Shown: piece after piece, positions 4,521 to 49,117 of the stretch
Position numbering within the stretch: the stretch's first letter is position 1
How the letters are laid out: each line of letters opens with the position of its first letter
From: Onthophagus taurus
Taxonomy: Eukaryota > Arthropoda > Insecta > Coleoptera > Scarabaeidae
Reading direction: 5' to 3'
Length of the DNA stretch: 64,000 bases
Assembly: GCF_036711975.1 (NCBI RefSeq)
Contig: NC_091971.1
Span: 33,110,081-33,174,080, forward strand
Position numbers and translations under genes: made by a program
The notes under the pieces: model-generated
The model's input: the letters and a program-made list of their open reading frames with translations, nothing else
Database searches by the model: none
Told to the model about the DNA's origin: nothing

Positions 4521-5124
4521 TTCCTCAGGGGCCCAGTGAGTTACTGGGTACGGGCTTAGCGAACCCGAGGCCGCCTGAGCTCGAGGAGCATACCTCGTTA
4601 AAAAACGGGTCCGGCTGGCCCGGCCGGTAGCACCCCACAAAGGGCTCCTTGCCTGGGACACAGGTGAAGTGGGGAGGACCAGCAAGAAGATGTTGCCTAT
4701 TCCGGTACGGCTCCGGACTGTTGTGACGTGTTATGTAATGTTTTATGTTACGTGTTATGTGCATGTCCGATCGGCGTGCATGTAGGCGAACCTGGGAGTG
4801 CTTTGGAACTGGATGGCTTGCAACCGGACAGGAAAGAGGCTGATGTGAGTTTACTCTGCCGAAGGAACGTCTCGTGAGCGTCAGGGACCGGCCCCTTCGG
4901 GACCCCGATCGGGTAGTCCTATATGGATGGATGGATCGGAGCCACCATTGCACCAGGCGAGTATGTATCCGTCCGTGTATTCCGGGATACATTAAGCGGT
5001 GGTCAGGCCCCACGGAACTGGGGTAGAGGATTTCGGCCAGATGGTCGTATCCTTGAGGGTATACCCGTTCTTGACCTTTACCGGCCCGCCTCTTATAGGA
5101 CGATGCGCCGGCTAAAACAAGACC
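4521..5124 (+). promoter_or_regulatory. E1 5' UTR with structured RNA module
   Basis: Contains hairpins CCCAGT/ACTGGG (about 4,531-4,547) and CGGG/CCCG around a CTTAGCGAA loop (about 4,551-4,567), then the shared module at 4,582-4,636, then CCTG/CAGG. The second half (about 4,838-5,115) is shared with E3 only: GATGTGAGTTTACTCTGCCG, a GGCCCCTTCGGGACC segment, CTGGGGTAG and the GATGCGCCGG run-in to the ORF1 start. I infer a role in promoter function, translation or RNP assembly. Confidence 0.65.
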
Positions 5125-6807
5125 ATGGTGAATAAAGATGCAACAAAACCGGAAGGGTGTGGAAAGGAGAGAGAAGCAAGTGGAGCTAAAAGTATAGAAA
5201 ATACCAGCAAGCTTAGGAAGATGTTTACGCATGCTAGGAGTAACTCTCTAGGGGGTGAATATAAGAAAAGAAAGATAACAGATAGTCTTGTGGAAGTTAC
5301 CGATGTAGAAGATCCATACAATCAACAGTTAAGCTCAGAGGTGTTCGTTATAAAAGAAGCATTAGACGCAATTACAAAATTAACGAAGGATTTGAGTGGG
5401 TGGATGGAAAACAACACAAGAAGAGAAGTTAAGGATTTGACACAGAGACTCGAAAGACAGGTGGAAGTAATTAACAGACAGTCTATAAAGGATTGGTTAG
5501 ATAGACACAAATATGAAAAAATACAGAAAATGACGTTTGATGTGGATGTACAGACACAATCTGATACCAGAGAGATTGCTACACAGACAAAGGACTGGAC
5601 GAAGTTGCAAACGCTGAAGCAAATGGACAGCTATGAAGAATGGCTTGCAGTTAAAGATGAGGATTGGGAAGACGAATTGTACACAAACACGGAAATTAAG
5701 AGTGGAAATCCCATAAAAGCAGAGGACAATGTAATAAAGATAATCGTAGTGGAGCCCGAAGATGTTGAAATGGAAAAAGGGATACAGAGGGTATTCAGAG
5801 ATAGATACCCGGAAATATCCATGATCAAGGATGATTTTGGATTTGTAGAACAAAACTACAAAATAGGAACAAAGAAGGGAATGGAGGAGGGAAGGAGAAA
5901 AGTTGTTAAATTTAAATATGATGGAACGGAGAAGGACATGTATGGAAAGGTGGTAGAGTTAAAAAGAGAAACACAAACAGAAAGGGAATTGGGAATACAT
6001 ATGATAAACAAATTGCCAATCGAAGTGTTTAGAAAAATGATTGAGGCTATCTTTCATGGGTTGGAGACTAGAGTTTATATTTACGGGACGCCCGCGTCTA
6101 ATAAGGCTAATACAGATGGTAAAGGAAGAACTAGCTACGCCTTGGTTGTGGGGAAAGGAGATAAGACGTTTAAGGAGGCAGTCAAAGATATCAGAGGAGT
6201 GCTTGGTGCCCCAGAAATAAGGGACTCAATCAGAGGTATAAGCAGCACAAAGGATGGGAAAGTGCTAGTAACAACAGATAAGGACAATGAAGTTCTAAAG
6301 AAAGCGCAGGAGGCGATACAAAAAATGTCTGACGATCAAATAGAGGTAAGGAGATTAGGTGAGCAAAATGAAGTGCTGTTTATTAATGGGATGGATGCGT
6401 CGATAGAAAAGGAAGATGTTCGAGGTGTACTAAATGAGACACTGGGGCGAGACAACTCTGGCTTGCAGCTGAGCGATCTGAGACCCCGTAGAAATGGTAC
6501 TCAAGCTATTACAGTCACAATGGGTAGCAAGGAGGCGCAAAAACTGATAAAGATGGGGGTCATAAAAATAGGCCTTACCAGATGTAGCATAGAGAAAAGA
6601 ATCAAAATGAACAGATGCTTTCGATGCTGGGAGTATAATCATACAGCCAAGGAATGTAAGGCTACGGATAGATCGAAGCTGTGTAAAAAGGAAGAGGCGT
6701 GTCCGCTTTGTAACATGACAGGCCATAAATCAGGTACTGGGAAGTGTAAAATATTTAATGAGGCACTCACCGCTGCAAGAAGATCCATACGCAAACGCAA
6801 TGGATAA
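5125..6807 (+). CDS. E1 ORF1, Gag-like nucleic-acid-binding protein, one zinc knuckle missing
   Basis: 560 residues. ATG in a good context (GACCATGG). Order of parts: a serine/basic patch RSNSLGG followed by KKRK (likely nuclear localisation); a coiled-coil-like segment around residues 90-130 with NNTRREVKD; a TQT motif (EIATQTKDW); a conserved central region (NTEIKSGNPIK, DDFGFVEQNYK); and C-terminal knuckles at about 498-541. The first CCHC (CFRCWEYNHTAKEC) and the last (CPLCNMTGHKSGTGKC) are present. The middle knuckle found in E2 and E3 is deleted in frame between SKLC and KKEEAC. In R1-clade elements this protein binds element RNA and brings the RNP to the target. It overlaps ORF2 by 8 nt (ATGGATAA). 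Confidence 0.85.
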   Translation: MVNKDATKPEGCGKEREASGAKSIENTSKLRKMFTHARSNSLGGEYKKRKITDSLVEVTDVEDPYNQQLSSEVFVIKEALDAITKLTKDLSGWMENNTRREVKDLTQRLERQVEVINRQSIKDWLDRHKYEKIQKMTFDVDVQTQSDTREIATQTKDWTKLQTLKQMDSYEEWLAVKDEDWEDELYTNTEIKSGNPIKAEDNVIKIIVVEPEDVEMEKGIQRVFRDRYPEISMIKDDFGFVEQNYKIGTKKGMEEGRRKVVKFKYDGTEKDMYGKVVELKRETQTERELGIHMINKLPIEVFRKMIEAIFHGLETRVYIYGTPASNKANTDGKGRTSYALVVGKGDKTFKEAVKDIRGVLGAPEIRDSIRGISSTKDGKVLVTTDKDNEVLKKAQEAIQKMSDDQIEVRRLGEQNEVLFINGMDASIEKEDVRGVLNETLGRDNSGLQLSDLRPRRNGTQAITVTMGSKEAQKLIKMGVIKIGLTRCSIEKRIKMNRCFRCWEYNHTAKECKATDRSKLCKKEEACPLCNMTGHKSGTGKCKIFNEALTAARRSIRKRNG

Positions 6808-8340
6808 GTACGATGGAGGGAGGAACGTTAGAATATTACAACTGAATTTTAACAGATCATATGTTGCGCAGGAGTTAATTATGCGAACAGTATCGAAGGA
6901 GAATATTTCGATAATTATTGGCTGTGAACCGAATGTACGGTATCCAAATGATTTCTGTGATATAAACTGTGATACTTTTATTAATGTGTATGGAGACTGT
7001 GTTGTGACTGACCGGGTCGTCGGAGTTGGGTATGTCTGTGTTGTGCTGGAGTCCTTTGCTGTCGTGTCTTGTTATTTCTCACCGAATGGAAACATTCTGG
7101 ATTTCGAAACGCTGCTATATAATATGGAGCTTATAATAAAAAATATAGGAAAGCCGGTAATTGTTGGTGGTGACTTGAACGCCAAAACTACGGTGATTGG
7201 ATCGAACACAATAAACCATAGGGGGAAATTGCTTGAAGACTGGCTCTCCTCTGTCAACCTGGTAGTATTAAATGAGGGAGGAACCCCGACCTTCGTGGGA
7301 GCGAGAGGTACGTCCGTAGTGGACTTTACCGCCGTGTCTGAGAGTTTACGGGATAAAGCCTCAGGATGGAGAGTGGAGGAGGAAGAAGAAAATCTGAGCG
7401 ACCACCGGACGATAAGATTTGACATCAGAAACTCTCTCTATACCGCCGTGGTTGCGGTGGCGCGGGGTTGGTATACGAACGAAATGTCTTTAAAGAAATA
7501 TGCCGAGTCGTGCGTTGAACTTTTCGCGAGAAACGAAGAAATTACCCCCGAAACAGTGCTGCAAAGGATTAGGGACAAATGTAACAGCTTGCTAGATAAG
7601 AAACCGTCAAGTATGCGAAATAGAGCGCCGGTATATTGGTGGAACACGGAAATTGCAGAAAAACGACGGCAATGTATAAAATTAAGAAGAACTATCACGA
7701 GGGCTAGGAAGAGAAGTGGCGATGAGCGAATGGAAGAATATACAACCAATTATAAGGCGGCTAAACATGCGATGAGGTTGGCGATAAAGAGGAGTAAAGA
7801 AGGGAAATGGAAAGAATTGTTGACGGAACTGAACGATGACGTATGGGGAAAGGCATATTGGATTGTGACTAGAAAATTCAAGATGCGGAGGAGAGGTCAG
7901 GTGGAGGAAAGAGAGGTGAAAAGACAGGTGGAGAAACTATTCCCTGGGCATGAGAAAATAGAGTGGAATATGGAAAACATAGTAAATAGTGCTATTCCTG
8001 AAATAAGTAAGAAGGAACTTATTGAGGCGGCGGGGAAACTAAACAAACGAAAGGCACCAGGCCCGGATGGCGTGACAGCTGAAATCCTGCTGGCCACAGT
8101 TGAAGGTAATCAAGAGGCGTTTGCAGAAATGTACAACGGGTGCTTAAAGGCTGGAGAGTTCCCTAAAGCGTGGAAAGTGGCGAAACTTGCGTTGATAGAG
8201 AAACCCAGAAAAGATGAATTACATGAAACCACGTATAGACCTATATGTATGTGTAACACCATGGGGAAACTGATGGAGATAATCATTAGGGAGAGACTGC
8301 ACGTGGAGATAGAAGAAAAAGGCCTCCTCGAAGAAAAAGG
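6800..8340 (+). pseudogene. E1 ORF2, endonuclease and partial reverse transcriptase, cut by telomere repeats
   Basis: About 513 residues survive. APE-type endonuclease: QLNFNRS at the N-terminus, GGDLNAK near residue 122, SDH near 199. The RT begins at APGPDG (about 418) and runs through ALIEKP and the YRPICMCNTMGK block to EEIEEKGLL-like sequence, where DNA changes to TTGGG. The YADD box, the rest of the RT and the C-terminal CCHC are gone. The frame stays open through the TTGGG units (WVGLG) into the next 5' UTR, stopping at 8,488, but that tail is fortuitous. The start chosen is ATG 6,800, inside the last codons of ORF1. Confidence 0.85.
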
Positions 8341-8367
8341 TTGGGTTGGGTTGGGTTGGGTTGGGTT
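8341..8367 (+). repeat. TTGGG tract between E1 and E2
   Basis: Five perfect units plus TT. No poly(A) precedes it: the repeat abuts broken E1 coding sequence, which fits repeat addition to a broken end. It ends ...GGGTT at the E2 5' end. Confidence 0.95.
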
Positions 8368-8711
8368 CCCCGCAGGGGCCTGGGATGATCCCAGGTACGG
8401 GTTTTGCGAACCCGCGGTGCCCGAGCTGGAGGAGCATACCTCCTTAAAAAACTGGGGTCCATCTGGCCCGGATGGTAGCACCCCATAAGGGTACCCGCCT
8501 GGGTTTACAGGCGGAGGAGCACACCTCCTTAAAAAAGCTGGGGTCGCGTGGTCCCGGGCGACAATACTCCATGTAATGCCCCTGCCCGGTTGCAGGGAGC
8601 ACGGGATTAAGTGTTGATTCAGTGTTTATGTGTGTGAAGTTTCGTTGGTAAGTGTATACCTGCCAGTAGGTCTAAAATGGGGCGTAAAGAAGGCGCCTGA
8701 CATCTCTAAAA
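8368..8711 (+). promoter_or_regulatory. E2 5' UTR with two copies of the RNA module
   Basis: Starts CCCCGCAGGGG (a CCCC/GGGG hairpin). Then CCTGGG/CCCAGG, CGGG/CCCG with the GCGAA loop, module a (8,428-8,484), CGCCTG/CAGGCG, and module b (8,513-8,571). Just upstream of the start is TACCTGCCAGTAGGT, able to pair ACCT with AGGT, then GGCGTAAAGAAGGCGCCTGACATCT, a run-in shared with E6, E7 and E8. Confidence 0.7.
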
Positions 8712-8726
8712 ATGGTTTATGGATGA
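8712..8726 (+). promoter_or_regulatory. Four-codon upstream ORF overlapping the E2 ORF1 start
   Basis: ATG GTT TAT GGA TGA. The ORF1 ATG (8,719) lies inside it in another frame, and the uORF stop overlaps the second ORF1 codons. The same arrangement occurs in E8 and, modified, in E6 and E7, so it is likely to tune ORF1 initiation. Confidence 0.55.
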
Positions 8727-13861: not shown

Positions 13862-14525
13862 GAGAGCCCGGTTAAGGAAGACTACAAGGAGGGGGGTGAA
13901 CTCCCCTCTCATCCAGGTATGTTTCTTATTACAACTATTTCAAGAAAGTAATTGGATTCCTTTTATTCTTTTTTTTTGTTTGAATGGGCCGGAGGCATGG
14001 AGAGATTCCTGTGCTGAATTTTACAGAGGGGAGAAGAGGAAGAGATGAGGGGGGCTCTCCCCCTCACCCAGGTAGGAAATATTTAAAAATTATTTCAAAA
14101 AATTTATTCTTTCTTTGTCACCCATAACGCCTGTCGGCTGCCTGGGGTGAGGTGAAAAAAGGAAGGAGGATGAGCAGGAGAGGAAGAAGGGAAGAGGGTG
14201 GTGAAGTAGATAGGAAGAGGAACTAAGGGGGAATATTTTCCCCCGCACCCAGGTACGAGTGAAATAAAAATCATTTCAAAAAATAAATTTTGCCTTTGTT
14301 ATACACATGACCGCATTGGACGGGACGGGAGGAGGAGAAAGAGGAAAAAACGAAGGAAACTCCGAAGTAATGCCCTATGGGCGGTTCCGGAGAAGACGAG
14401 GAAAGGGGTTTTTTAGTGGGTCGGGGTAAATGACTCCAACCCCACACTATCTGGCCGCCCATCACCACAGGCCAGATGTCTGGTTAGCAGATTTTTCCCC
14501 AACCTCGTTAAAAAAAAAAAAAAAA
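13862..14525 (+). promoter_or_regulatory. E2 3' UTR: three divergent tandem modules, type A tail, poly(A)
   Basis: Three repeats, roughly 165-180 bp apart, each with a G-run/C-run hairpin followed by CCCAGGTAYG-like sequence and ATTTCAAAA: about 13,891-13,960, 14,047-14,105 and 14,227-14,285. The terminal tail (about 14,380-14,509) has GTTCCGGAGAAGACGAGG, AGTGGGTCGGGG pairing with a downstream CCAACCCCACACT, and TCTGGCC pairing with GGCCAGA, then TTTTTCCCC and poly(A) 14,510-14,525. The tail is probably the RT recognition structure. Confidence 0.75.
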
Positions 14526-14560
14526 GGGTTGGGTTGGGTTGGGTTGGGTTGGGTTGGGTT
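14526..14560 (+). repeat. TTGGG tract between E2 and E3
   Basis: Seven perfect units in the phase GGGTT..., directly after the E2 poly(A) and ending ...GGGTT at the E3 5' end. Confidence 0.97.
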
Positions 14561-15118
14561 CCCCTCAGGGGCCTAGTGTGATCACGGGGTACGGGCTTAG
14601 CGAACCCGAGGTACCTGAGCTCGAGGAGCACACCTCGTTAAAAAACCGGGGTCCGCCTGGCCCGGACGGTAGTACCCTGTAGGGCACCTGCCTGGGTTAC
14701 AGGTGAAGATTTTGGAAGGCCGGCAGAATTCCGGAGTTGTGTAGTCCTTGTAAGTGTGTAATAAATGTTCAGTGTAATGACCGACGCGTCTGGGGAGAAT
14801 CGGGGAGTGCTTGCTGGCCAGTGGCTTGCTTCGGCTGTTGGTTTTTGCGGGCTGATGTGAGTTTACTCTGCCGAAGAGGATTCCACGTCGTGTTCAGGTG
14901 CCGGCCCCTTCGGGACCTGGGTCGGGTAGTGGGCATTGGGTGAGGAGGGTCGGGACTCCTCATCGATACGGGCGAGTGCCTACCGTCTGGTATCCGGGTA
15001 GGTTAAGCGGCGACTGGGCCTCAGGGAACTGGGGTAGGGGTCACGACCCCGAGGGTACACCCGTTCCTGGTCATGCCGGCCCGCCCCTCTGCCCACGATG
15101 CGCCGGTAAACTGGAAGG
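14561..15118 (+). promoter_or_regulatory. E3 5' UTR with structured RNA module
   Basis: CCCC/GGGG, CCTAGTG/CACGGGG (with one mismatch), CGGG/CCCG with the CTTAGCGAA loop, then the module at 14,622-14,677 and CCTG/CAGG. The distal half (about 14,852-15,112) is collinear with E1: GATGTGAGTTTACTCTGCCG, GGCCCCTTCGGGACC, GGTTAAGCGGCG, CTGGGGTAGGGG, GATGCGCCGG. Confidence 0.65.
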
Positions 15119-19760: not shown

Positions 19761-20179
19761 ACAGAAGAGATATAAATGGAGGAAGCGGACATAAGAGGGG
19801 GAATGGTTTTTCCCCCTCTTTCCAGGTATGAACGGTAAGTTGTATTGATGCAAAAAGATTAATAGATAACTTTTGTCCACATGAAATACTGCGAATGTGA
19901 GACGATTGGAGAAGAAGGCAGTTAACAGGCATGAAATGTTTGGCAAAATCATAAGATGCAAGATTGTGGTTGAGTATGAGAAGGAGTCGGAGGGATCAAA
20001 GGGCTAAACAGAAGAGATACAAGTGGAGGAAGCGGACATAAGAGGGGGAATGGCTTTTTCCCCCTCTTTCCAGGTATGAACGGTAAGTTGTATTGATGCA
20101 AAAAGATTAATAGATATGTTTGTCCACATGAAATACTGCGAATGCGAGACGATTGGAGAAGAAGGCAGTTAGCAAACAT
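19686..20179 (+). repeat. Tandem duplication of the E3 ORF2 end and proximal 3' UTR
   Basis: Two copies with a period of 247 bp: GAAATGTTYGGCAAAATCAT starts at 19,686 and again at 19,933. The unit includes the last about 75 bp of ORF2, the stop, a GAGGGGG/CCCCCTC hairpin, CCAGGTATGAACGG and the following AT-rich stretch. The second copy cannot be translated as part of ORF2. Confidence 0.85.
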
Positions 20180-20252
20180 CTCCGAAGAAATACCTTCTGG
20201 GTGGTTCCAGAGAAGACGAGGACAGGGGTTAAAAAAAAAAAAAAAAAAAAAA
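19761..20252 (+). promoter_or_regulatory. E3 3' UTR with shortened tail and poly(A)
   Basis: After the duplicated modules comes GGTTCCAGAGAAGACGAGG followed by ACAGGGGTT and 22 A residues (20,231-20,252). Homologous tails in E2, E5 and E9 continue for about 130 nt through two stems. E3 was therefore polyadenylated early or primed internally, yet it still carries a normal A|GGGTT telomeric junction. Confidence 0.75.
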
Positions 20253-20282
20253 GGGTTGGGTTGGGTTGGGTTGGGTTGGGTT
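20253..20282 (+). repeat. TTGGG tract between E3 and E4
   Basis: Six perfect units beginning GGGTT after poly(A) and ending GGGTT at the truncated E4. Confidence 0.97.
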
Positions 20283-20284
20283 AC

Positions 20285-20419
20285 GATGAAGACAAGAAAG
20301 GGGAAAAGGAGGAAGATCTACAATTTAAGAAGGTTGTAGGGAAGAGGACAGGGAACAAAGAGAGCAGAAAGGACACTCAAGGTATCTCAAAGCTCTCCCC
20401 GACTAGACAGACAAAATGA
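20285..20419 (+). pseudogene. E4 ORF1 C-terminal remnant
   Basis: 44 residues (DEDKKGEKEEDLQFKK...SPTRQTK) identical or nearly so to the last residues of E8 ORF1. No knuckles remain. Its TGA overlaps the ORF2 ATG (ATGA). Confidence 0.85.
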
Positions 20420-23400
20420 AACCATTAAAGATCATGCAGCTCAACAATAGCAATAGGAGATGGGACACCCACGATCTCCTGGAAGCAGAAGCTCAGCATA
20501 GAGGGACCGATATATTGATTGGACAAGAGCCGAATGTAAGGAAAGCGCAGAAACTCAAAACGGACAAAAGAGGAGACGCATTTATTCAAATATGTACGAC
20601 TTCAATAACACCAAAGAACTGGGAAGTTGGGGATGGCTTTCTTGGGGTATACCTGGAAAACCTCACTTTGTGGTCAGTCTATTTCTCTCCAAACAGATTG
20701 GATACAGATTTCGAAGAGCTGCTTGACGATTTGGAAACAAAAGTAAGGGCAAGTTATAAACCAGCTGTGATATGTGGAGATTTTAACGCGAGGACGAGAA
20801 TGGCGGGAGACGTTAGACATAACCGAAGAGGTCAATTGTTGGAGGAATGGATGGCAAAAAATAGACTGATACTGGTAAATGCGTATGGAATAACAACGTA
20901 TAGGGGACCCAGAGGATCCTCAGTAATAGACTTGACACTGATATCAGAATATATGGCGAATTCAGTCGTGAACTGGGAAGTGAGGGAAGACGCTGAAATG
21001 CTAAGTGACCATGTCCTTGTATCCTTGTCAATTGCAACAACCATTCAGGCTACTGAAAGGATAAAGAAAACTGTAGGTTGGAAGGTTACAGATGAGAAGT
21101 TAAGTCTACTACGAGAAAATTTCAAGAATAACCCCCGAAAAGATTTAACCCCGGAATCTCTCATAGAAAGAATCACCAACGCATGCAACAAAACGTTCAA
21201 AAGTAGATCAGCTGGCAATAAGGGTAGGCAACCGAAATATTGGTGGACACAGGAGATAGCGGAAGCAAGGAGAAAATGTATCAAAAAGCGAAGAGAGATG
21301 CAAAGAGGAAACAGAGGGGGAACAGACAGAAACAGCAATAGCGAGAAAAGGCAACAATATAGAAAAGCAAAGAAAGATCTCTCAATGATGATTAAAAAGT
21401 CGAAAGAGCAGAAGTGGAAGGACCTATGTAGTGAACTAGAACAAGATGTCTGGGGCACTGCATACCAGATTTTAACAAAGAGGCTGGGCACAAGGGGCAT
21501 CGGACAACTAGGTGAGGACACAATCAACAACCAGTATAGCAAACTCTTCCCCATAGTAACAGAAGAAATAGATAGAGTAGAATTACCATTAACGATACAA
21601 AAAAAGGATGAACCATTCAGCAAAGAAGAGTTAAAGTTGACTCTTGGACAGTTAAAACCAAAGAAGGCTCCAGGAAATGATAAGATAACCAACGAAGTCC
21701 TTAAAGCGTGTGTCGAAGCGGACCCAGATGTCTTTCTACAGGTCTTCAACGGCTGTTTGGAGACTGGATGTTTCCCGGATGTTTGGAAGGAAGCTAAGCT
21801 ACTGCTAATAGAAAAACCTTTAAAACCTGGTCAAACACAATCCTATCGACCCTTATGTCTTTTAAGCGTTGTGGGAAAGCTGCTCGAAAGACTGATCAAT
21901 AAGAGATTGATGGATCAGTTGGAAACCACTGGAGCAGTAAGCGACTGTCAGTTCGCATACAGAAAAGGAAGGGGAACGGTAGACGCGATAATGTCAGTAA
22001 TAGATAGAATATCACTTACCAATAGGGGTTTTAGCGTGATGATATTAATAGATGTCAAAAACGCATTCAATTCGGTCCCATGGAGAGAGGTGAGGAAAGC
22101 GTTGAGAGAAGCAAAAGTAACGACACCAATAAGAAGTTTGTTAAACACATACCTATCACAGAGGAAAATCCTGCTACAAAATGAAAAATGGCGACAAATG
22201 AGTTGCGGAGTACCACAAGGCTCAGTGATTGGAGGCACACTATGGAACCTATATTACAATAGAGTCCTTATCCTTGAACAGGAAGAGGGAGTTAGTGTGG
22301 TGGGATATGCCGATGACCTCGCTTTGGTGGTAGAAGGTAGAACACCTGAGATAGTAACCGAAAAGGCTGAGTACTCGATAAAAAGAGTTGCGGAATGCCT
22401 AGTAAGTATGGGTCTCCAAATGGAAGAATCGAAGACAGAGATCGTAATTCTGGAAGGTCGGAGGAAGTTTGATAAAATCACCATCAAGATAGGTGACACA
22501 ACGGTATCGAGTGAAAGGTCTATAAAATACCTTGGTGTGATCTTAGACAAGGGTTTACGAATGACGACACATATAAGAACCATATGTGAAAAGGCAGCTC
22601 ACATGCAAAATGTCTTGGCGAGACTAATGCCAAGGATAGGGGGCCCGTCGCAAAGGAAAAGAAGGTTGCTAGCATCGACGATATGCTCTGTAATACTTTA
22701 TGCAGCCCCTGCGTGGGAGGGAGTAATAAAACATAAAAAGTACAAGAACATCATTCGAAGTATTGAACGTAAATGTACCATAGCGATTACGGCGGCGTAC
22801 CGAACCGTAGCAACTGATGCGGCGGGAGCCCTGGCGGGATGCCCACCCCTGGACCTCCTCATATCAGAAAGAGCGAAGAACTGGAAGAACAAGGGCAGCA
22901 CAAAGAAAGAAGTACACATTGAAATGTTGGAGAAGTGGCAGTCCAGGTGGAGGAATTACACAGGCTGGAGCAGCGTGTTCATCAGCGATGTTGTAGCGTG
23001 GCAAGAAAAGGGCCCGCCTACAGACTATTACGTAACGCAGGCAATTACCGGACACGGCAGTTTTGGAAGCTATCTGAGAAAAATAAAAAAACTAGAATCG
23101 GATATGTGTTGGTTTGGGTGCGCCGTACCTGACACCCCTGAACATACGATTTTTGGCTGCTCAAGGTTTGACAGAGAAAGAAAGATGGTGGAACTGCAGA
23201 TAAACCGAAAAATAACGAAAAACACCGTAGCGGAAATCCTAGTAGAAGGGGAAAAAAGGGCTGAGTTGTTGGTAAGCTTTCTGAGGCAAACCATGAAAAC
23301 GAAGGATGCAGAAGAACAAGAAATGAAGAGAAAGAAGAGAGAGGAAGAAGAAAATGGAAGCAACAGAGACTGCAGCGAGGAGGAACGAGAGGGGGCGACC

Positions 23401-23472
23401 CCTCTCATCAGCCGGGTACGTAATCCACAATATACATTTCAAAAAGTTAATGTTTTTCTTTTTCCTCAATAA
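20416..23472 (+). CDS. E4 ORF2, endonuclease / reverse transcriptase
   Basis: 1,018 residues. GDFNAR and SDH in the nuclease, APGND, IDVKNAFNSVPW, GVPQGSVIGG and YADD in the RT, and C-terminal CWFGCAV...HTIFGC. Same lineage as E6, E8 and E9, where the first cysteine pair is spaced CxxxC instead of CxxC. Two differences from E8 stand out. The N-terminal Q-x-N...R motif reads QLNNSNRR against QFNCNRR (one extra codon). At the C-terminus a one-base difference in a G-run changes the last residues from GDPSHQPGT to a longer tail. The extra residue lies at a motif that normally contributes to the nuclease active site. Confidence 0.9.
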   Translation: MKPLKIMQLNNSNRRWDTHDLLEAEAQHRGTDILIGQEPNVRKAQKLKTDKRGDAFIQICTTSITPKNWEVGDGFLGVYLENLTLWSVYFSPNRLDTDFEELLDDLETKVRASYKPAVICGDFNARTRMAGDVRHNRRGQLLEEWMAKNRLILVNAYGITTYRGPRGSSVIDLTLISEYMANSVVNWEVREDAEMLSDHVLVSLSIATTIQATERIKKTVGWKVTDEKLSLLRENFKNNPRKDLTPESLIERITNACNKTFKSRSAGNKGRQPKYWWTQEIAEARRKCIKKRREMQRGNRGGTDRNSNSEKRQQYRKAKKDLSMMIKKSKEQKWKDLCSELEQDVWGTAYQILTKRLGTRGIGQLGEDTINNQYSKLFPIVTEEIDRVELPLTIQKKDEPFSKEELKLTLGQLKPKKAPGNDKITNEVLKACVEADPDVFLQVFNGCLETGCFPDVWKEAKLLLIEKPLKPGQTQSYRPLCLLSVVGKLLERLINKRLMDQLETTGAVSDCQFAYRKGRGTVDAIMSVIDRISLTNRGFSVMILIDVKNAFNSVPWREVRKALREAKVTTPIRSLLNTYLSQRKILLQNEKWRQMSCGVPQGSVIGGTLWNLYYNRVLILEQEEGVSVVGYADDLALVVEGRTPEIVTEKAEYSIKRVAECLVSMGLQMEESKTEIVILEGRRKFDKITIKIGDTTVSSERSIKYLGVILDKGLRMTTHIRTICEKAAHMQNVLARLMPRIGGPSQRKRRLLASTICSVILYAAPAWEGVIKHKKYKNIIRSIERKCTIAITAAYRTVATDAAGALAGCPPLDLLISERAKNWKNKGSTKKEVHIEMLEKWQSRWRNYTGWSSVFISDVVAWQEKGPPTDYYVTQAITGHGSFGSYLRKIKKLESDMCWFGCAVPDTPEHTIFGCSRFDRERKMVELQINRKITKNTVAEILVEGEKRAELLVSFLRQTMKTKDAEEQEMKRKKREEEENGSNRDCSEEEREGATPLISRVRNPQYTFQKVNVFLFPQ

Positions 23473-23785
23473 TGATAACGAGAGCGGATGCCTGGAAATG
23501 GAGAAGAAGCGGTGCAGCGAGAGGGGACCTGACTGAAGAAGAAGGAGAACGATGGATAAGAAGAGGAACGAGAGAGGGGGCCGACCCCTCTCATCAGCCG
23601 GGTACGTAATCCACAATATACATTTCAAAAAGTTAATGGTTTTTTTTTTTCCTCAATAACGATAACGAGAGCGGATGCCTGGAAATGGAGAAAAGCGGTG
23701 CAGCGAGAGGGGACCAGACTGAAGAAGAAGGAGAACGATGGATAAGAAGAGGAACGAGAGAGGGGCTTGCCCCTCTCAACCGGGA
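23381..23785 (+). repeat. Tandem 3' UTR modules of E4 (period 183-186 bp)
   Basis: Units start with AGGAACGAGAG at 23,381, 23,564 and 23,750 (the third partial). Each has GAGAGGGG-loop-CCCCTCTC and CCGGGTACGTAATCC then CATTTCAAAAAG. The first unit overlaps the end of ORF2. E8 has one unit fewer. Confidence 0.9.
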
Positions 23786-24093
23786 GGAGTGGAAATGGTA
23801 TGGAAGAGAGAGGAGAGTGAGACGACCAAACGGAGTGTTTTCAACAAATGAGGTTCAAGTTTTTCACGAAGAAAGATGTATGAAGAGAAGTTGTGTTATT
23901 TTTTATTGTTTTGCTCTGATGTAATGCCAAGTGGCGGTTCCGGAGTAGGAAGAGGGGGGGGTTTTTAGTGGGTAGTCTTGGGGCTAGAGATAGTCCCACA
24001 CTCCCGGCCGAAGTACTGAAGTTCCATCATTCTAAACATCTGAGGCGCCAACAGTAGGCCGGGGTGCGCAACGCATTTTCCCCTCCTCTGCGC

Positions 24094-31640: not shown

Positions 31641-31772
31641 TATGAGAGAAAGCCGGGAAGCTGCACCGAGTGAATCAGTGTCGGTTCATATAAAAATCGC
31701 CATTGAACGGCGGCCTTAACAGCTAGAAACGTTGTCTTTTTTTATGCTATTTAAATAAACTATTAAAGAGAA

Positions 31773-33699: not shown

Positions 33700-33705
33700 A
33701 AAGAA

Positions 33706-36639: not shown

Positions 36640-37075
36640 CACAGGCCCCCCCTCTGCCAGTGTTTTGATGTTGATTTTATGAGCGAGTTGGTTGACGGAG
36701 AGAATCAGGAGTATCAAAAGAAGGAAAAAGAAAAAGAAACGGAAGGGGAGAAGAAGAAGAGAGGGGCGCCTGTCCAGCCCCTCAGTCAGGTACGCTAAAG
36801 TAATGAATTTTTTTAAAAGTTAAGACGTATTTTTTGTTTTTCTCGGGTACCGAGAGACGATGAAGGAAGAGCATGCGATCGTCGCACGGATGGAAGATTG
36901 TAACTCCGAAGAAAACTCGCGAGAGTGTTCCGGAGAAGACGAGGAAAGGGGTTTTTAGTGGGTCGGGGTCTTTAACCCCAACCCCACACTATCTGGCCGT
37001 CCAACACCACAGGCCAGATGTCTGTTCGCAGATTTTCCCCAACCTCGTTAAAAAAAAAAAAAAAAAAAAAAAAAA
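36640..37075 (+). promoter_or_regulatory. E5 3' UTR with type A tail and poly(A)
   Basis: Two G-run/C-run hairpins: GAGGGGGGCTT...CCCCCCCTC at the ORF2 stop, and GAGGGGCG...CCCCTC near 36,760 followed by AGTCAGGTACGC. The tail GTTCCGGAGAAGACGAGG, AGTGGGTCGGGG/CCCCAACCCCACACT and TCTGGCC/GGCCAGA matches E2 and E9. Poly(A) 37,050-37,075. Confidence 0.75.
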
Positions 37076-37100
37076 GGGTTGGGTTGGGTTGGGTTGGGTT
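37076..37100 (+). repeat. TTGGG tract between E5 and E6
   Basis: Five perfect units, GGGTT phase at both edges. Confidence 0.97.
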
Positions 37101-37464
37101 CCGCCCCCGGGCTTAGCCCGGGGGATGGGGGTGGCTCCCCCAATCGGACGCGTCCCCAGGTGGCGGATAGGGGAAAGCTCACTGCGCATGCATTGCACAT
37201 AGCGTGCGCAGGGGGTACCGGGGAAATAAAATACCCGGCGCGGACCAAAAGCCAAGGAGGAGCATACCACCTTAAAAAAGCTGGGGGCCGTGTGATCCCG
37301 GACGGCAGTACCCCATGATTAGCCCCTGTCTGGAGTCACGGGGGACACGGGAATAAGTGTTTAGTGTTTCAATGTGAGTGTAGTCTAACAGTGCAGTGTT
37401 GTGAGTGTATACCTGCCGGTAGGTGAAAAACGGGGCGTAACCTAGGCGCCTGACATCTGGAAAT
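37101..37464 (+). promoter_or_regulatory. E6 5' UTR, GC-rich hairpins and RNA module
   Basis: A perfect 9-bp hairpin at 37,104-37,124 (loop TTA), GGGGG/CCCCC next to it, and CTGCGCATGC (37,182) pairing with GCGTGCGCAG (37,202). The shared module is at 37,254-37,314. The start run-in has TACCTGCCGGTAGGT and GGCGCCTGACATCT as in E2 and E8. Confidence 0.65.
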
Positions 37465-37476
37465 ATGGTTTATTGA
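37465..37476 (+). promoter_or_regulatory. Three-codon upstream ORF joined TGATG to E6 ORF1
   Basis: ATG GTT TAT TGA, whose stop shares its A with the ORF1 ATG. This is a termination-reinitiation layout, homologous to the uORFs of E2 and E8 but shortened by one codon. Confidence 0.5.
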
Positions 37477-39785: not shown

Positions 39786-39787
39786 AA

Positions 39788-42736: not shown

Positions 42737-42933
42737 TAAAGGATAGCATACCCCGATGAAATGCCCCGATGGGCGGATTCCGGGAAGAGAGGGGGAAGGG
42801 TTTTAGTCGGTCGGCAACCCAAGAGGGAAGCCAACCCGACACTATCCGGCCGCATGACAACTTAGGCCGGGTGTCTGTTAACAGATTTCCTAATCCCCTC
42901 TATAATAAAAAAAAAAAAAAAAAAAAAAAAAAA
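42737..42933 (+). promoter_or_regulatory. E6 3' UTR, short divergent type A tail and poly(A)
   Basis: Only about 170 nt before poly(A) (42,907-42,933). It has GCGGATTCCGGG, AGTCGGTCGGC pairing with GCCAACCCGACACT, and TCCGGCC pairing with GGCCGGG. Compared with E2 the stem sequences differ but pairing is kept. No AGGTAYG tandem modules. Confidence 0.7.
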
Positions 42934-42958
42934 GGGTTGGGTTGGGTTGGGTTGGGTT
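42934..42958 (+). repeat. TTGGG tract between E6 and E7
   Basis: Five perfect units, GGGTT phase. Confidence 0.97.
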
Positions 42959-43222
42959 CCCCGCAGGGGCCCAGTTGATACTGGGTACGGGTGTAGCGAA
43001 CCCGCGGCACCCTAGCCAGAGGAGCCAACCTCTTTAAAAAACTGGGGTCCATCTGGCCCGGATGGTAGCACCCCATAAGGGCTCCCACCTGGGAAACAGG
43101 TGAAGAATTTTGGGAACACCGGTACAGCTCCGGGAAAAATTGTGTCGTCCGATTTTATGTGCCTGCCGGATAGGATTAAAACGGAGCGCAAGGTAGACGC
43201 TTGACATCTCCACAAATGGTTA
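42959..43222 (+). promoter_or_regulatory. E7 5' UTR with RNA module and upstream ATG
   Basis: CCCC/GGGG, CCCAGT/ACTGGG, CGGG/CCCG with GTGTAGCGAA loop, module 43,018-43,074, CACCTG/CAGGTG. An upstream ATG at 43,216 (ATGGTTAATGGACAG) opens a 24-codon frame to 43,287 overlapping ORF1. In E2 and E8 the same uORF stops after four codons. Confidence 0.65.
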
Positions 43223-45574
43223 ATGGACAGAAAACCAAAAGCCTCGGATGGGTCTGCCGGCCAAACAGCGCCGCAGACCACGCGTGAAGGAGAGTCGACT
43301 TCGCGTGATTATGAAGACTCGAAGATACTAGGCCCTGCTAGCCGGGGTAAAGAGGGTTTACAAGCGTTCAGACGTAGCACCCTCCTGGGCAGATCACCAC
43401 CGCAGACGCCCACACCAACAACCGACGAGTTCCAGACTCCAGATGAAGAAGAGAGTATAGTTAAAACCGTCAAGAAAGTACCAACGATTACTAAGACAAA
43501 AACGACTGAAACAAGATGGGAACCCACCCTGGAGGAAAACACACCGACCAGAATTAGAAGTTGGTCTATGGGGAGCGACCCAATAGAACTGACAGAAATG
43601 CCGAATTTAGAAGTAAAGAAAAGAAAAAGAGGACCCATAGAAGGAAAAGAAGCGAGGTGTGATCAGGCAAAAATCCTAGAAGAAGCAATTGGAAAGATGA
43701 TAGAACAAATAGGAATATTAAGGAAAAATGTGGAACAAAACACAAAGAGAGAAATCAAGGAAGCTGCAGGAAAGATGAAAAAAATTGCGGAAATCATGGA
43801 CCGACAGGAGATGAGAGAATGGATAGGTAGCCACAAAACCGGACAGGTTAACACCCGGGCGACGCAAACGGAACTAGAGGAGATGAAGGAAGAAGAGGAG
43901 GAAAGAACAAAAAGAGAAAAGATAAGAAAAGCAGACACTTTCGAAGAATGGATGGAGGTTGCGAAATGGAAATGGGAAGAGCAATACTTCAAAAATACTA
44001 GCATCGTAGAGGGAAACCCAATATGGCAGGGAAAGAACAAAGCAAGAGTGGTGCTAGTCGAGCCAGATGACGCAAGCATGGAGAAGAGCATCCAATCACA
44101 ATACAAGAGAGTTTATCCCATACTGGAGGAAATAGAAGGCAACTGCGAGGAGGTGGAGATGACAAAAATTATAAAGACGGGGGGTGCAAAGAGAGAAGAA
44201 AGAGAGGTGATAGTGAAGGCCACAGCTGGTGAAACAGAGAGAGAATTGTGGGAAAACCTTAACAAGATACGAGAGAAGTTAAGAAAAGAAGTAACTATAG
44301 CAATCCATCACATAAGAAGTATGTCACTACACAGACTCAGAACAATGATAGAAGTTATATTTAGAAAAGAAACAAGTAAGGTAGAGATCTATACAACGGC
44401 AAAGAAACAAGAGGAAGAGGAAATGCTAAACAAGAATGGCGGTGCGGAAAAGAAAAGTAAAAGAGCAACTTACGCTCTTGTGATGGAAAGCAAAGGGAAG
44501 ACGTATGACCAAAAGATAATGGATATAAAGAGCCAGATGAAGGGTAAAAAGGTAGTAGAAATTATTGAGGAAATAAGAGAGACTAGAGACGGACGGGTTC
44601 TGATTATAACAAAAAACGATGAGACGGGCGTAAAAGAGCTGCAGAAGATCCTAACAGAAAAAGAGGGACAGAGAGTAACAAAGGGTGAGAAAAGGGGTGA
44701 GAGAGGAAAGATAATAAACATAAAGGGCATGACTCCGGCAACGGAAATATATGAGGTTGAAGAGGCGATAAGATTAGTAATTGGAGCGAAAGCAGAATGT
44801 AAACTGAGCACGCTAAGGCCATACGCTGGATGCATGAGAGCTATTACAGTAGTGACAAGCAAAGAGGGAGCGGAATTACTCATAAGAAATAGAAGATTAA
44901 GGGTGGGCTTGACAATGTGCCAAGTAGAAGTGAGAGAGGAAATAAAGAAGTGCAACAGATGCTGGTCTCCAACACACCTGGCTAAAGAGTGCACCAAAGA
45001 GGACAGAAGAACCTGGTGCTACAAATGCGGAGAACGTGGGCACCAAACAGGTGAATGCAAGAATGAACCAAAATGTCCAGACTGCCAAATTACCGGACAC
45101 AGAGCAAGTACGGGGGCGTGCCCAATTTATAGGGAAACGGTCAAGAAAATGAAGAGAACGGGAGCAATAGAGGATAAACCAGAAGCCGTGGAACACAAAC
45201 TGATTAAAGCCGCGAGACAGGAAACGACACGGAGACAGGATAAAACGATGGAGGAGGAAGGCAAGGCGAAGGAAAAAGAGGGACCTCCGGAGGAAGCTCG
45301 GGAGAGGGACCAAAGGGAAATAGAAGTAGAAAGAAAGGAGAGTATCGGCAATGAACATCAAAAACAAGATAAACAGATGGTGGAAAGGCAACAAGAAATG
45401 AAGAATTTCGAGAAGGTTACTAGACGGAAGAAAAGAAAAAAGAAGGAAGGAAGTTCTGAAGGCCAAAGCTCTACAGAATCAGGTTCTCCGAACGAGCCGA
45501 TCAGAAACCGATACCTGAGAGCAATAAATCGTGATGCCCAAGAAAATCAAAGTACTACAACTCAACGTAAATAG
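43223..45574 (+). CDS. E7 ORF1, Gag-like protein with three zinc knuckles
   Basis: 783 residues. KASDGSAGQ, FRRSTLLGRSP and RIRSWSMGSD with KKRK; QNTKREIKEAAGKMKK; TQT motif (TRATQTELEE); a conserved middle region (EGNPIWQGKN); three knuckles near 577-633 (CNRCWSPTHLAKEC, CYKCGERGHQTGEC, CPDC...GHRASTGAC); then a charged tail of 150 residues with RRKKRKKK. The DLDQTF block of E2, E6 and E8 is missing. The last 41 bases overlap ORF2, the longest overlap in the array. Expected to bind element RNA. Confidence 0.88.
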   Translation: MDRKPKASDGSAGQTAPQTTREGESTSRDYEDSKILGPASRGKEGLQAFRRSTLLGRSPPQTPTPTTDEFQTPDEEESIVKTVKKVPTITKTKTTETRWEPTLEENTPTRIRSWSMGSDPIELTEMPNLEVKKRKRGPIEGKEARCDQAKILEEAIGKMIEQIGILRKNVEQNTKREIKEAAGKMKKIAEIMDRQEMREWIGSHKTGQVNTRATQTELEEMKEEEEERTKREKIRKADTFEEWMEVAKWKWEEQYFKNTSIVEGNPIWQGKNKARVVLVEPDDASMEKSIQSQYKRVYPILEEIEGNCEEVEMTKIIKTGGAKREEREVIVKATAGETERELWENLNKIREKLRKEVTIAIHHIRSMSLHRLRTMIEVIFRKETSKVEIYTTAKKQEEEEMLNKNGGAEKKSKRATYALVMESKGKTYDQKIMDIKSQMKGKKVVEIIEEIRETRDGRVLIITKNDETGVKELQKILTEKEGQRVTKGEKRGERGKIINIKGMTPATEIYEVEEAIRLVIGAKAECKLSTLRPYAGCMRAITVVTSKEGAELLIRNRRLRVGLTMCQVEVREEIKKCNRCWSPTHLAKECTKEDRRTWCYKCGERGHQTGECKNEPKCPDCQITGHRASTGACPIYRETVKKMKRTGAIEDKPEAVEHKLIKAARQETTRRQDKTMEEEGKAKEKEGPPEEARERDQREIEVERKESIGNEHQKQDKQMVERQQEMKNFEKVTRRKKRKKKEGSSEGQSSTESGSPNEPIRNRYLRAINRDAQENQSTTTQRK

Positions 45575-48464
45575 ATCAACGGAGGCTATGAACCTCATGG
45601 AGAGACAGGCAGTTACGACGCGGACTGACCTAGCAATAATTTCGGAACCGAATAAGAGAAAGATTGAGATGGGTGGATGGTTTAAAAATAGTGATGGGGA
45701 TGTTGCAATAAAAATTTGGAACCAGGATATCAAGGTTAACAAATGGATGGAGGGAAATGGATATTTGGCGCTGGCGACTAACGTGGGACTTCTGGTGGGA
45801 TGCTATCTGACTCCAAACGAAACAATCATGGAATTCGACAGAAAGCTGAGTGACTTGGGAAGAAGTGTGGATGGGTTCAGAGAAAGAGAAATTGTAATGG
45901 CTGGAGACTTTAATGCTAAACACAACCACTGGGGATCAAAGAGAGAGGACGAGAGAGGCAGGATGGTTTGGGAATGGATGGCGGAGAGGGACATGGTTGC
46001 GGTAAATAGAGGGGACAGACCGACTTGGAAAAGGGGAAGTCAGGAGTCCATAATAGACCTGACAATTTGCAGGAGCACACAAATTAATAATTTTGAGAAA
46101 TGGCGAGTGGAGGAGGAGGAGGAAAACCTCAGCGACCACCAAAGCATATACTTCAGCGTCAGAATGCATCACAAAAGAGAACCCTGTAGAACAAATAGCG
46201 AGGGCAGATGGAAAAGAAAGCAGGAATTCGTCAAAAAATTTGAAGAAATTCTGCATAAAGAGTGTCTGAAAAGGCGCAAAATGACCCCAGAAACACTAAC
46301 AGAGGCAACTACAAAAGCATGCAACGTGGCCTATGGAAAAAGAAGAAAGACCAGGATTGAAACAGGAAGGTTATACTGGTGGAACGAGGAGGTAAAGAAG
46401 GCAAGGCAGAGGGTAAATAAGTGCAGACGAGTTGCAACAAGAGGAAGCAGAAGCGGCGGTGCGCCGAGAGAGCTGGAGGGACTGGAGACTGAATACAGGG
46501 AAGCAAAGAGACAATATAGAAGGGAAATTAAAAGGGCAAAGAAAAGAGCATGGAGAAATCTGTGTAACGAGTTGGAGACTGATGTTTGGGGGGATGCCTA
46601 CAGGATAGCGCTGAAAAGGACGAAAAACATATGTAAAGTTGTCCTCGACGAAGTTGAAGTAGTGAACGTAATCAAAGAACTCTTTCCTGATGGGGAGGAC
46701 AGCACGTGGAAGATAAAAAGGCTGGCAAAAATAGAGAGAGAGGTGACGGAAGAGGAAGTGAGAGAGACCGCTGAAGGCATAAAAAGTAAAAGAGCACCGG
46801 GTCCTGATGGCTTAACACCGGAGGTGATGAAAGATGTCGTGAAGCTGGAAGCAAAAAAACTGGCAAAAATGTATGATCAACTGCTGAGAGAAAATAGATT
46901 TCCCAAGATATGGAAGGAGGGAAAACTTGTGCTGATAGAAAAGGGCGATCCAAAGAATAAAAAGTTCAGACCGCTGTGCTTACTGAACTGTTTCGGAAAG
47001 CTGTATGAGGGATTGATTAGAACGAGACTGCTGGAAGAACTGGAAGCAGGGGGAGGACTCGCAGAGCACCAATATGGTTTCACCCAGGGAAAATCCACCG
47101 AAATAGCTGTAGGAGAAGTGCTAAAGAGAGCAGACGCCACGGAGAAGTTTAACAGAGGAAAAAAAAGGAAGTGCTTGCTGATCACTATCGACGTTAAGAA
47201 CGCGTTTGGTACGGCGACCTGGGGTAAAATCATAGAGGAAATGGAAGAGAAGGGAATTACGGAAGGATTGATTAACGTTATAAAGGAATATCTATCCGAA
47301 AGACAAGTGATATACGAGGGAGGAAGATATGGAATAAAAAGAGGAATTCCGCAAGGGTCAGTACTCGGTCCTACTTTATGGAACATCTATTTCGACAAGA
47401 TTGTGAGATCGCAGGAAGGGAAGGACAATGTAGACATAATAGCGTATGCGGATGACCTAGCATTGGTCATTACAGGATGGAAAGATGAAGAACTTACGGA
47501 AGTCGCACACCGAACGCTAGAGCACATAGCACACATGATGAAGGGATTGGGTTTGGAAATGGCGCCGGAAAAGACAGAGGCGGTGCTACTAAAGAGCAGG
47601 AAGACAAAGACCGAATTAGAATTGAAAGTGGGAAACTGTAGTATAAGAACAGGACAAGCGATCAAGTACTTGGGGGTAATGCTGGGGAAGGACGTAAGAT
47701 GGCGTGAACACATCAGATATGTCGTACAGAAAGCCCAAAACACAACTAGGGCATTATACAGAGTTATGGGAGCGACGTATGGACCCAGCATAGAAAAGCG
47801 CAAGATGATAGGTGCGGTTATATGGGCGCAGGTTTTTTATGCGTGCCGAGCATGGAGGGACGCCCTGAAGACCAAACGGAACGTAGAACAACTTACGAAA
47901 ATACAGAGAGCAGTCATGATAAGAATAACGAGCGCGTACAGGACCACGTCGAATGCAGCATTGCAAGTACTTGGGGATATGCCACCGATCGACCTATACG
48001 TGAAGAAGAGATTGGACCGGAACGTGGGCGAGACCAGAGACCTCATCGATAGAGAGTGGCAACGGAGATGGGAGAGCACCAAAGATGTTGCGAGATGGAC
48101 AAAGAGATTGGTGCCCGTTTTATCTGTGTGGCTGAAGCGAGATTGGGGCGAGACGAACTATTATATGAGCCAGTTTATGGGGGGACACGGGTGCTTCAGA
48201 AGTTATTTGCACAAGTATAAGAGAGCCTCCGACGACCGATGCATGTACTGCGATATGGAGGACGACGTAGAACACACGTTCTTCCAGTGTAGTAGGTGGG
48301 AAGACCTTCGAATGGAAATGGAGAGAAAGGTGGAAAAAAGGTTGACTCCAGAAAACTGCGTACAGACCATGATAGAGAGTGAAAGTAATTGGGCAACAGT
48401 GCAGAAATACATCAGAGAGGTTGTCAGCACAAAGGAGAAAGAGGAGAGACGAGAAAAGATATAG
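45534..48464 (+). CDS. E7 ORF2, endonuclease / reverse transcriptase
   Basis: 976 residues from ATG 45,534, which lies inside ORF1. QLNVNRS, GDFNAK near 123, SDH near 199; APGPDG near 420, IDVKNAFGTATW, GIPQGSVLGP, YADD near 636; C-terminal CMYCDME...HTFFQC near 902. Motif A reads NAFGTATW and PRPLCLLNCFGK-type spacing is used, as in E5 but unlike the NAFNSxPW of the other lineages. Open and complete; a candidate active copy. Confidence 0.93.
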   Translation: MPKKIKVLQLNVNRSTEAMNLMERQAVTTRTDLAIISEPNKRKIEMGGWFKNSDGDVAIKIWNQDIKVNKWMEGNGYLALATNVGLLVGCYLTPNETIMEFDRKLSDLGRSVDGFREREIVMAGDFNAKHNHWGSKREDERGRMVWEWMAERDMVAVNRGDRPTWKRGSQESIIDLTICRSTQINNFEKWRVEEEEENLSDHQSIYFSVRMHHKREPCRTNSEGRWKRKQEFVKKFEEILHKECLKRRKMTPETLTEATTKACNVAYGKRRKTRIETGRLYWWNEEVKKARQRVNKCRRVATRGSRSGGAPRELEGLETEYREAKRQYRREIKRAKKRAWRNLCNELETDVWGDAYRIALKRTKNICKVVLDEVEVVNVIKELFPDGEDSTWKIKRLAKIEREVTEEEVRETAEGIKSKRAPGPDGLTPEVMKDVVKLEAKKLAKMYDQLLRENRFPKIWKEGKLVLIEKGDPKNKKFRPLCLLNCFGKLYEGLIRTRLLEELEAGGGLAEHQYGFTQGKSTEIAVGEVLKRADATEKFNRGKKRKCLLITIDVKNAFGTATWGKIIEEMEEKGITEGLINVIKEYLSERQVIYEGGRYGIKRGIPQGSVLGPTLWNIYFDKIVRSQEGKDNVDIIAYADDLALVITGWKDEELTEVAHRTLEHIAHMMKGLGLEMAPEKTEAVLLKSRKTKTELELKVGNCSIRTGQAIKYLGVMLGKDVRWREHIRYVVQKAQNTTRALYRVMGATYGPSIEKRKMIGAVIWAQVFYACRAWRDALKTKRNVEQLTKIQRAVMIRITSAYRTTSNAALQVLGDMPPIDLYVKKRLDRNVGETRDLIDREWQRRWESTKDVARWTKRLVPVLSVWLKRDWGETNYYMSQFMGGHGCFRSYLHKYKRASDDRCMYCDMEDDVEHTFFQCSRWEDLRMEMERKVEKRLTPENCVQTMIESESNWATVQKYIREVVSTKEKEERREKI

Positions 48465-48677
48465 AAATGGTAAGCCGCCTGTGCGATGGTAAAAACCCGT
48501 GAGGGTAGTTCCGCGCAGGAGAGAGGCAGGAAAAAAAGGGGGGGGTTTTTAGTGGGTAGATGAGGGGCTGTCATTAGTCCCACACTCCCGGCCGAAGAAC
48601 AACATCTACTTCTTACAACAACTTTTTAAAGCGCCAACAGTAGGCCGGGGTGCATAACACATTTTCCCCTCCCCAGC

Positions 48678-48710
<33 letters not shown>
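48465..48710 (+). promoter_or_regulatory. E7 3' UTR with type B tail and poly(A)
   Basis: Short. AGTTCCGCG, a G-run then TTTTTAGTGGGTAG pairing with TAGTCCCACACT, CCCGGCC pairing with GGCCGGGG, GCGCCAACAG and ATTTTCCCCTCCCCAGCGC, then poly(A) 48,680-48,710. It is nearly the E4 tail. No AGGTAYG modules. Confidence 0.75.
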
Positions 48711-48713
<3 letters not shown>

Positions 48714-48765
48714 TTGGGTTGGGTTGGGTTGGGTTGGGTTGGGTTGGGTTGGGTTGGGTTGGGTT
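48711..48765 (+). repeat. TTGGG tract between E7 and E8
   Basis: Eleven perfect units, the longest tract between elements. Confidence 0.97.
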
Positions 48766-49117
48766 TCCCTCAGGGGCCCAGTGAGGAGTCACTGGGTACG
48801 GACTTAGCGAACCCGAGGCCGCCTGAGCTCGAGGAGCATACCTCGTTAAAAAACTGGGGTCCGGCTGGCCCGGCCGGTAGCACCCCACAAGGGTACCCAC
48901 CTGGGTTTACAGGTGGAGGAGCAAACCTCCTAAAAAAACTGGGGTCGCGTAGTCCCGGGCGACAATACCCCACGCAAAGTCCCTGCCGGGATGCAGGGAG
49001 CACGGGATAGTGTTTGGTGTTTAGTGTAATATGGCGTAGCAGTGTAGTCCTCTGTGAGTGTATACCTGCCGGTAGGTTAAAAACGGGGCGTAACCTAGGC
49101 GCCTGACATCTGGAACA
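48766..49117 (+). promoter_or_regulatory. E8 5' UTR with two copies of the RNA module
   Basis: CCCAGTGA...TCACTGGG, CGGACTTAGCGAACCCG, module a 48,830-48,886, CACCTG/CAGGTG, module b 48,915-48,972. The run-in with TACCTGCCGGTAGGT and GGCGCCTGACATCT matches E2 and E6. Confidence 0.7.

Follow-up and report, generated by a model that had tools for sequence, protein, structure and literature searches.

A covarying 5′ leader in SART-like telomere retrotransposons of the beetle Onthophagus taurus

Telomeric elements and the anatomy of their leader

The window, the whole 64-kb stretch of DNA analysed here, is the final stretch of a 33.17 Mb contig of the beetle Onthophagus taurus (NC_091971.1, positions 33,110,081 to 33,174,080; genome 290.8 Mb). 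It closes with a terminal (TTGGG)n telomere of 7.3 kb (56685..64000, + strand, the end of contig C6). Upstream of this telomere, the retrotransposons E1 to E7 stand head-to-tail within shorter TTGGG arrays, with the G-rich strand as their sense strand. Most of them carry a first open reading frame (ORF1) plus an ORF2 for endonuclease (EN) and reverse transcriptase (RT); the 5′ part of E4 has been lost, and E2 interrupts E1. The subject of this report is the RNA leader at their 5′ ends. The data support selection on its structure, with pairs kept by compensatory change, and a part of it looks like a cassette exchanged between element families.

The elements that carry the leader are SART-like telomere retrotransposons inserted in (TTGGG)n. 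RVT_1 and Exo_endo_phos_2 were found in all three ORF2s scanned with Pfam, and zf-CCHC in three of the five ORF1s scanned (37473, 15119 and 49125, above the Pfam cut-off only in 49125); the same scan gave no zf-CCHC in ORF1s 5125 and 8719. All seven runs of at least 13 A in the window are followed by GGGTTGGG, and because of this the elements are assigned the SART orientation, which that order matches. Poly(A) followed by G-rich repeats is the search template for SART elements (PMC12564400), and TTGGG telomeres have been reported from several insect orders (PMC12564400, PMC8233369). Three elements from other contigs were added to the comparison: E8 and E9 (the L002 and L004 elements, both on contig C11) and E10 (the L006 element, on C16).

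The leader unit begins at the first base of the element with a domain of 61-66 nt, D0, which is followed by one or two modules. D0 starts directly after telomere repeats in all eight elements used for trees. It consists of CCUC or CCGC paired with GAGG or GCGG, enclosing hairpin h1, which covaries strongly, and a conserved GUACGG..UUAGCGAA. Each module runs from hairpin I through a UUAAAAAA linker and a GGGG/CCCC clamp that closes hairpin II to hairpin III. The second module, M2, stands in tandem behind the first, M1, in E2, E7 and E8, and is the sole module copy in E5 and L013. In all five copies of M2, pairing is possible between the hairpin II loop, UCCCG, and a CGGGA that follows hairpin III (UCCUG/CAGGA in L013, the one double change of this pseudoknot). 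A further pseudoknot, D3, lies just before ORF1.

In the window all parts are on the + strand. Their scores are those of three models (R3 for D0, R1 for M1 and R2 for M2), and every scored part except M1 of E3 was itself a training copy. E1 opens at the telomere junction with D0 (4519..4581, 83.2 bits) and M1 (4579..4667, 94.5 bits), in which hairpin I at 4582 is followed by the A-linker, clamp with hairpin II, and hairpin III. E2 has the CCGC/GCGG variant of D0 (8366..8427, 86.8 bits), M1 (8425..8514, 111.7 bits), a tandem M2 with the possible UCCCG/CGGGA pairing (8510..8613, 119.9 bits) and a D3 of the AG/CU type (8659..8707), recognised from the D3 alignment and the covariation scan. E3 carries D0 (14559..14621, 81.5 bits) and M1 (14619..14706, 100 bits), of which a near-identical copy, L006, was in the training set. 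E6 has the CCGC/GCGG variant again (42957..43017, 74.1 bits), M1 (43015..43103, 108.6 bits) and a GG/CC-type D3 (43162..43211). E7 is complete, with D0 (48764..48829, 79.7 bits), M1 (48827..48916, 111.5 bits), M2 (48912..49012, 109.7 bits) and a CC/GG-type D3 (49065..49113). E5 begins with a different 5′ leader that gave no match to D0 (37099..37252), followed by its only module copy, an M2 (37253..37359, 115.5 bits), and a CC/GG-type D3 (37412..37460); the D3s of E5, E6 and E7 come from the D3 alignment. Part of the different leader of E5, GCGTCCCCAGGTGGCGGATAGGGG (37138-37186, present also in L073), recurs at 11 listed internal genome places with 82-93% identity (56-65 bits).

The first-pass annotation of this DNA had placed eight copies of a conserved module in 5′ untranslated regions (UTRs) of the window, and the eight are recovered as matches with at most three mismatches (100 shuffles: mean 0.27, largest 2). 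The shared module is present, but the unit is larger than was described, since both D0, found in five of the six window leaders by the R3 search, and D3 had been missed. The motif of these eight copies is nearly confined to SART-like telomere elements. Its pattern, AGGAGCNNACCNCNTNAAAAAA, gave 13 matches in the 290.8 Mb genome (E1, E2 twice, E3, E5, E6, E7 twice, E8 twice, E10, the L007 copy and L013), and the reversed control gave none. Three DNA queries of the same genome returned 15, 11 and 21 places, many of which were copies already counted or matches to other segments of the queries; L011, L012, L013, L068 and L070 were additional leader copies. Copies outside model training still match, with 48.8 bits for D0 and 42.8 bits for M1 of L070 and 34.8 bits for D0 of L068; D0 of L013 reaches only 17.1 bits. 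The weak model matches L046 (in coding-like sequence, by eye) and L055 (lacking the clamp and antisense to a nearby ORF2) were set aside as chance. The same was done with 14 bacterial matches of an 18-base pattern, taken as chance from the pattern length, and with four viral-contig matches of a 17-base pattern, which gave no match with R1-R3. The D0 pattern had no match in viral contigs.

Covariation in the leader and in D3

The pairing of M1, M2, D0 and the whole leader was compared with shuffles of the 3′ letters and with slid partners. In M1 (nine rows) 95.4% of cells are paired and 5 of 25 pairs show double changes; the values are 94.6% and 5 of 26 for M2 (five rows) and 93.3% and 6 of 15 for D0 (ten rows). 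Across the whole leader (11 rows, the diverged L012 and L070 included) 93.0% of 430 cells are paired, with double changes in 12 of 40 pairs and 32 cells; slid partners give 32-48% paired. RNAalifold predicts 47 pairs for eight leaders, 12 of them with compensatory changes. Some copies stand outside individual alignments: L007, L008 and L015 are left out of A4 (the same as or nearly identical to L006), L068 and L070 out of A5 (found after it was built), and L068, L010 and L013 out of A7 (no M1 or no clear D0).

Since relatedness can mimic compensatory change, 500 structure-free alignments were simulated on the leader tree, with the E8 row as root. They average 85.5% paired (maximum 92.6), 3.8 double-change pairs (maximum 11) and 5.0 double-change cells (maximum 18), and none of the 500 equals the observed leader values on any of the three measures. 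Selection on leader structure, which had been proposed from the eight copies alone, is supported by double changes in excess of shuffles, slid partners and tree simulations; for D3 the support comes from testing every usable pair of columns. The exact fold is less sharply defined. An alternative fold with other short helices is nearly equal (92.6% paired, 12 double-change pairs), and some G- and C-rich strands are shared by three short helices that compete with one another. The helix between AGGGG of D0 and the strand after GAGG pairs in 81.8% of cells with one double change, and shuffles reached the observed length in 8-91%; that between the hairpin II loop and AGGGC pairs in 88.5% with no double change; that between the post-GAGG strand and AGGGC pairs in 90.3% with one-sided changes only.

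The pair changes listed in the first-pass annotation are real, with some corrections of detail. Those of the clamp (U-A/C-G and G-C/A-U/G-U) and of hairpin II (G-C/A-U/G-U and G-C/U-A) were found again. In hairpin I the C-G/G-C/A-U change of the closing pair is real, but the copy at 37,254 is mismatched and only one of the five pairs varies on both sides. The covariation of hairpin III (G-U/A-U/G-C) likewise stands; the hairpin III of M2, however, is a different hairpin from that of M1. The annotation had also placed these changes in different lineages. They do fall in different lineages of the leader, but not of the elements, because the leaders appear to have been exchanged.

D3 was found in 10 of 14 copies (E2, E5, E6, E7, E8, E9, L011, L013, L068 and L070). 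The loop of a hairpin contributes a dinucleotide that pairs with another located a few bases upstream of the ORF1 start AUGs, as CC/GG, GG/CC, GC/GC or AG/CU, and all nine first rows pair at both positions. In the exhaustive scan of these nine copies, 5 of 1844 usable column pairs covary perfectly, and the loop helix is the only stack of two. E9, found after the scan, keeps both helices, with one loop pair G-U in the alignment, and its stem reads GGGG/CCCC in place of GGCG/CGCC, one C-G pair having been replaced by G-C in a compensatory change. With E9 added, both loop-helix pairs are standard in all ten copies with three types each, double changes occur in four of nine pairs, and the covariation score is reached by none of 500 shuffles. 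A short frame, AUG GUU AAU/UAU GGA UGA (49118-49132 in E7, 8712-8726 in E2), begins 7 bases before the listed ORF1 AUG (49125 and 8719) and overlaps it in another frame; variants are seen in several other elements.

Exchange of the leader between element families

Leaders and ORF2s tell different histories; outside the window the two were paired by adjacency, and the ORF2 of E1 is a 576-aa fragment. The leaders of E1, E7, E8 and E9 are 96-98% identical over their first 125-128 nt, gaps left out (85-94% by gapped blastn across longer stretches); their ORF2 proteins are 30-44% identical. The leader tree places E2 with E6, and E1 with E7, E8 and E9 (support of the latter group 82/87). The ORF2 tree places E1 and E2 with E3 and E10, and E6 with E8 and E9. 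In approximately unbiased (AU) tests, whose groups were chosen with the identity table already known, the leader data reject {E1,E2,E3,E10} (p-AU 0.0005) and {E6,E8,E9} (p-AU 0.0017), and the ORF2 data reject {E1,E7,E8,E9} (p-AU 0.0001). The group {E2,E6} is not formally rejected by the ORF2 data (p-AU 0.113), despite a likelihood difference of 299.

When 5′ UTRs were compared in pairs, the match within the leader broke off at 149-159 nt, the end of hairpin III, in 13 of 21 cases. The remaining eight matches stop at other points, run on (with more in common among E2, E7 and E8) or set only M2 against M1. With near-identical leaders before divergent ORF2s, conflicting trees and a match that ends at hairpin III, D0 and M1 behave together as a unit, and on these comparisons they look like a cassette exchanged between families. 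The route would most likely be template switching during reverse transcription or recombination of neighbouring telomere copies. The 5′ region of E9 (L048, C11:5300-8800, minus strand) holds D0 and M1, then repeats that by eye resemble 3′ UTR repeats, then another 5′ UTR with D3; judged by eye, it is a visible mosaic. A similar 3′ UTR (TTTTAGTGGGTCGGGG...CCCCACACTATCTGGCC), also recognised by eye, closes three elements (14340-14509, 36880-37049 and 56489-56658), and 3′ ends may have been exchanged as well. Within a telomeric array, the pattern suggests, the 5′ ends of elements can follow an evolutionary course separate from that of their downstream genes.

The ORF2 proteins of E4 (20416-23472) and E7 (51737-54742) are 99% identical; E4, which has no leader, begins directly after TTGGG repeats. 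The high identity suggests that E4 is a recent 5′-truncated insertion. Beside the telomeric array lies an ORF of 413 aa with a YqaJ viral recombinase domain (2140-3381).

Possible function and relation to known systems

As the leader stands before very different proteins, it is likely to be read by a factor common to the families, with the host translation machinery as the most plausible candidate, or else to act through the fold itself. Coding does not explain its conservation, because no + frame is open from the element start to ORF1 in any of the six window elements with a leader; every frame has at least two stops. Between the element start and the listed ORF1 start the same six elements hold 3-15 upstream AUGs, raw counts with no random expectation set beside them, which simple scanning would meet. 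These AUGs, together with D3 at the ORF1 start, favour non-scanning initiation. It is tentatively proposed that the leader recruits ribosomes near the AUG, perhaps with protection of the 5′ end. On a highly structured retrotransposon RNA, ribosomes would thereby be loaded close to the ORF1 AUG rather than arrive by ordinary scanning, and the compact 5′ end would additionally slow exonuclease decay. The broader picture is somewhat doubtful: one RNA cassette, swapped among the element families much as viral internal ribosome entry sites are, would supply ORF1 with non-canonical translation, and the 5′ end would evolve as a separate mobile unit.

Several observations weigh against ribosome recruitment or loosen its links. 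The folding energy reaches z <= -2 in only 3 of 10 stretches and is ordinary in the other seven, and as it is unexceptional the case for structure rests on covariation. For D3, a motif determined which rows were taken, and just two pairs make up its loop helix. The scan found no D3 in E1, E3 and L012 (E10 was treated as like E3), so D0 and M1 cannot depend on it. E5 stands without D0 and M1, the upstream AUGs are the raw counts mentioned above, and stability or protein binding would be just as possible a purpose for a stable fold at the extreme 5′ end.

A role confined to the 5′ end, in which a compact fold stops 5′-3′ exonucleases or marks the end of the RNA and leaves translation unaffected, would suit the position of D0 directly behind the telomere repeats. 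In insertion based on R2, RNAs with a stable 5′ fold resembling that of hepatitis delta virus (HDV) make the best templates, and 5′ RNA decay is suggested to be limiting (PMC11331408). Such a role leaves D3 and the tandem second module unexplained and is rather unlikely. The fold might instead be a signal through which the ORF1 or ORF2 protein of the elements themselves binds or packages the RNA, common to the families because they mobilise one another. The SART1Bm proteins recognise their own 3′ UTR in trans (PMC7265360), and the three window elements with much the same 3′ UTR would fit; yet one RNA bound by proteins as different as those behind the near-identical leaders is less likely than a shared host reader, which makes packaging improbable.

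A self-cleaving ribozyme, of a known or unknown class, could free the element from a telomeric co-transcript, and the exact 5′ position beside the repeats, on the strand of the G-rich repeat, as well as the precedents of R2 and the trypanosomatid Pr77, would agree with it. Rfam, however, yields no ribozyme match even at relaxed thresholds. At gathering thresholds no family is found, HDV-type included, and the relaxed search gave 2 and 6 matches, all below gathering scores; the leader is covered by no Rfam family, and the first-pass annotation had recognised no named one either. The PreQ1-I riboswitch (RF00522) was dismissed at 14 bits and E 3.4 against a gathering score of 39. By eye, some copies allow a PreQ1-like pseudoknot between loop AGC and a GCU beyond the A-linker, but L006 and L013 do not. 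An HDV-type topology (nested double pseudoknot P1-P2-P3 with a C before P2′, our own descriptor run with no positive control) had no match in seven leaders and L073, and shuffles gave more matches on average for seven of the eight sequences. L011, at an internal place, moreover keeps three telomere repeats directly before it, and L013 keeps four about 28 nt before its weak D0 match, though both can also be old telomeric insertions. Cleavage is accordingly judged very unlikely. An internal promoter at the 5′ end is commonly needed by non-long-terminal-repeat (non-LTR) elements, and the leader might be such a promoter at the DNA level, with the pairing a by-product. The compensatory changes over helices exceed the tree-based null and make this hardly credible as the only role, although a promoter may still coexist with the fold.

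Ribosome recruitment remains the tentatively preferred reading. Translation start and RNA protection in telomere-targeted retrotransposons seem little studied, and among the titles and abstract starts listed from the open literature, with subscription papers mostly outside the coverage, none reports a structured or exchanged 5′ leader for telomere-specific elements. SART1 of Bombyx mori is alike in its telomere target and its order of 5′ UTR, ORF1, ORF2 (RT and EN), 3′ UTR and poly(A); the accessible text of its description gives neither a folded 5′ leader nor leader exchange (PMC7265360). R2 also combines a folded RNA with site-specific non-LTR insertion, its 5′ fold has been suggested to protect the 5′ end (PMC11331408), and its protein binds pseudoknotted RNA (PMC12222951). 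Unlike the beetle elements it has one ORF and a 28S rDNA target, and no HDV topology was found in the beetle leader. Being short, covarying and placed before divergent proteins, the leader offers a well-defined target for probing and reporter assays.

Pr77 is a folded, conserved 5′-terminal sequence of 77 nt common to several trypanosomatid retroelements (L1Tc/ingi), sometimes in two tandem copies, as in SIDER2 (PMC4035085), and in these respects it resembles the beetle leader. It differs in being an HDV-like ribozyme and internal promoter, a fold not found in the leader, and in that common ancestry is taken to account for its ribozymes, whereas here leader and ORF2 trees conflict. Viral internal ribosome entry sites (IRESs) are structured 5′ cassettes that evolve independently of the coding region and are exchanged between virus families (PMC7354566); they promote internal initiation, which for the beetle leader would be a putative role. 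Pr77 and the exchange of viral IRESs would appear to be the nearest known ideas to the leader cassette.

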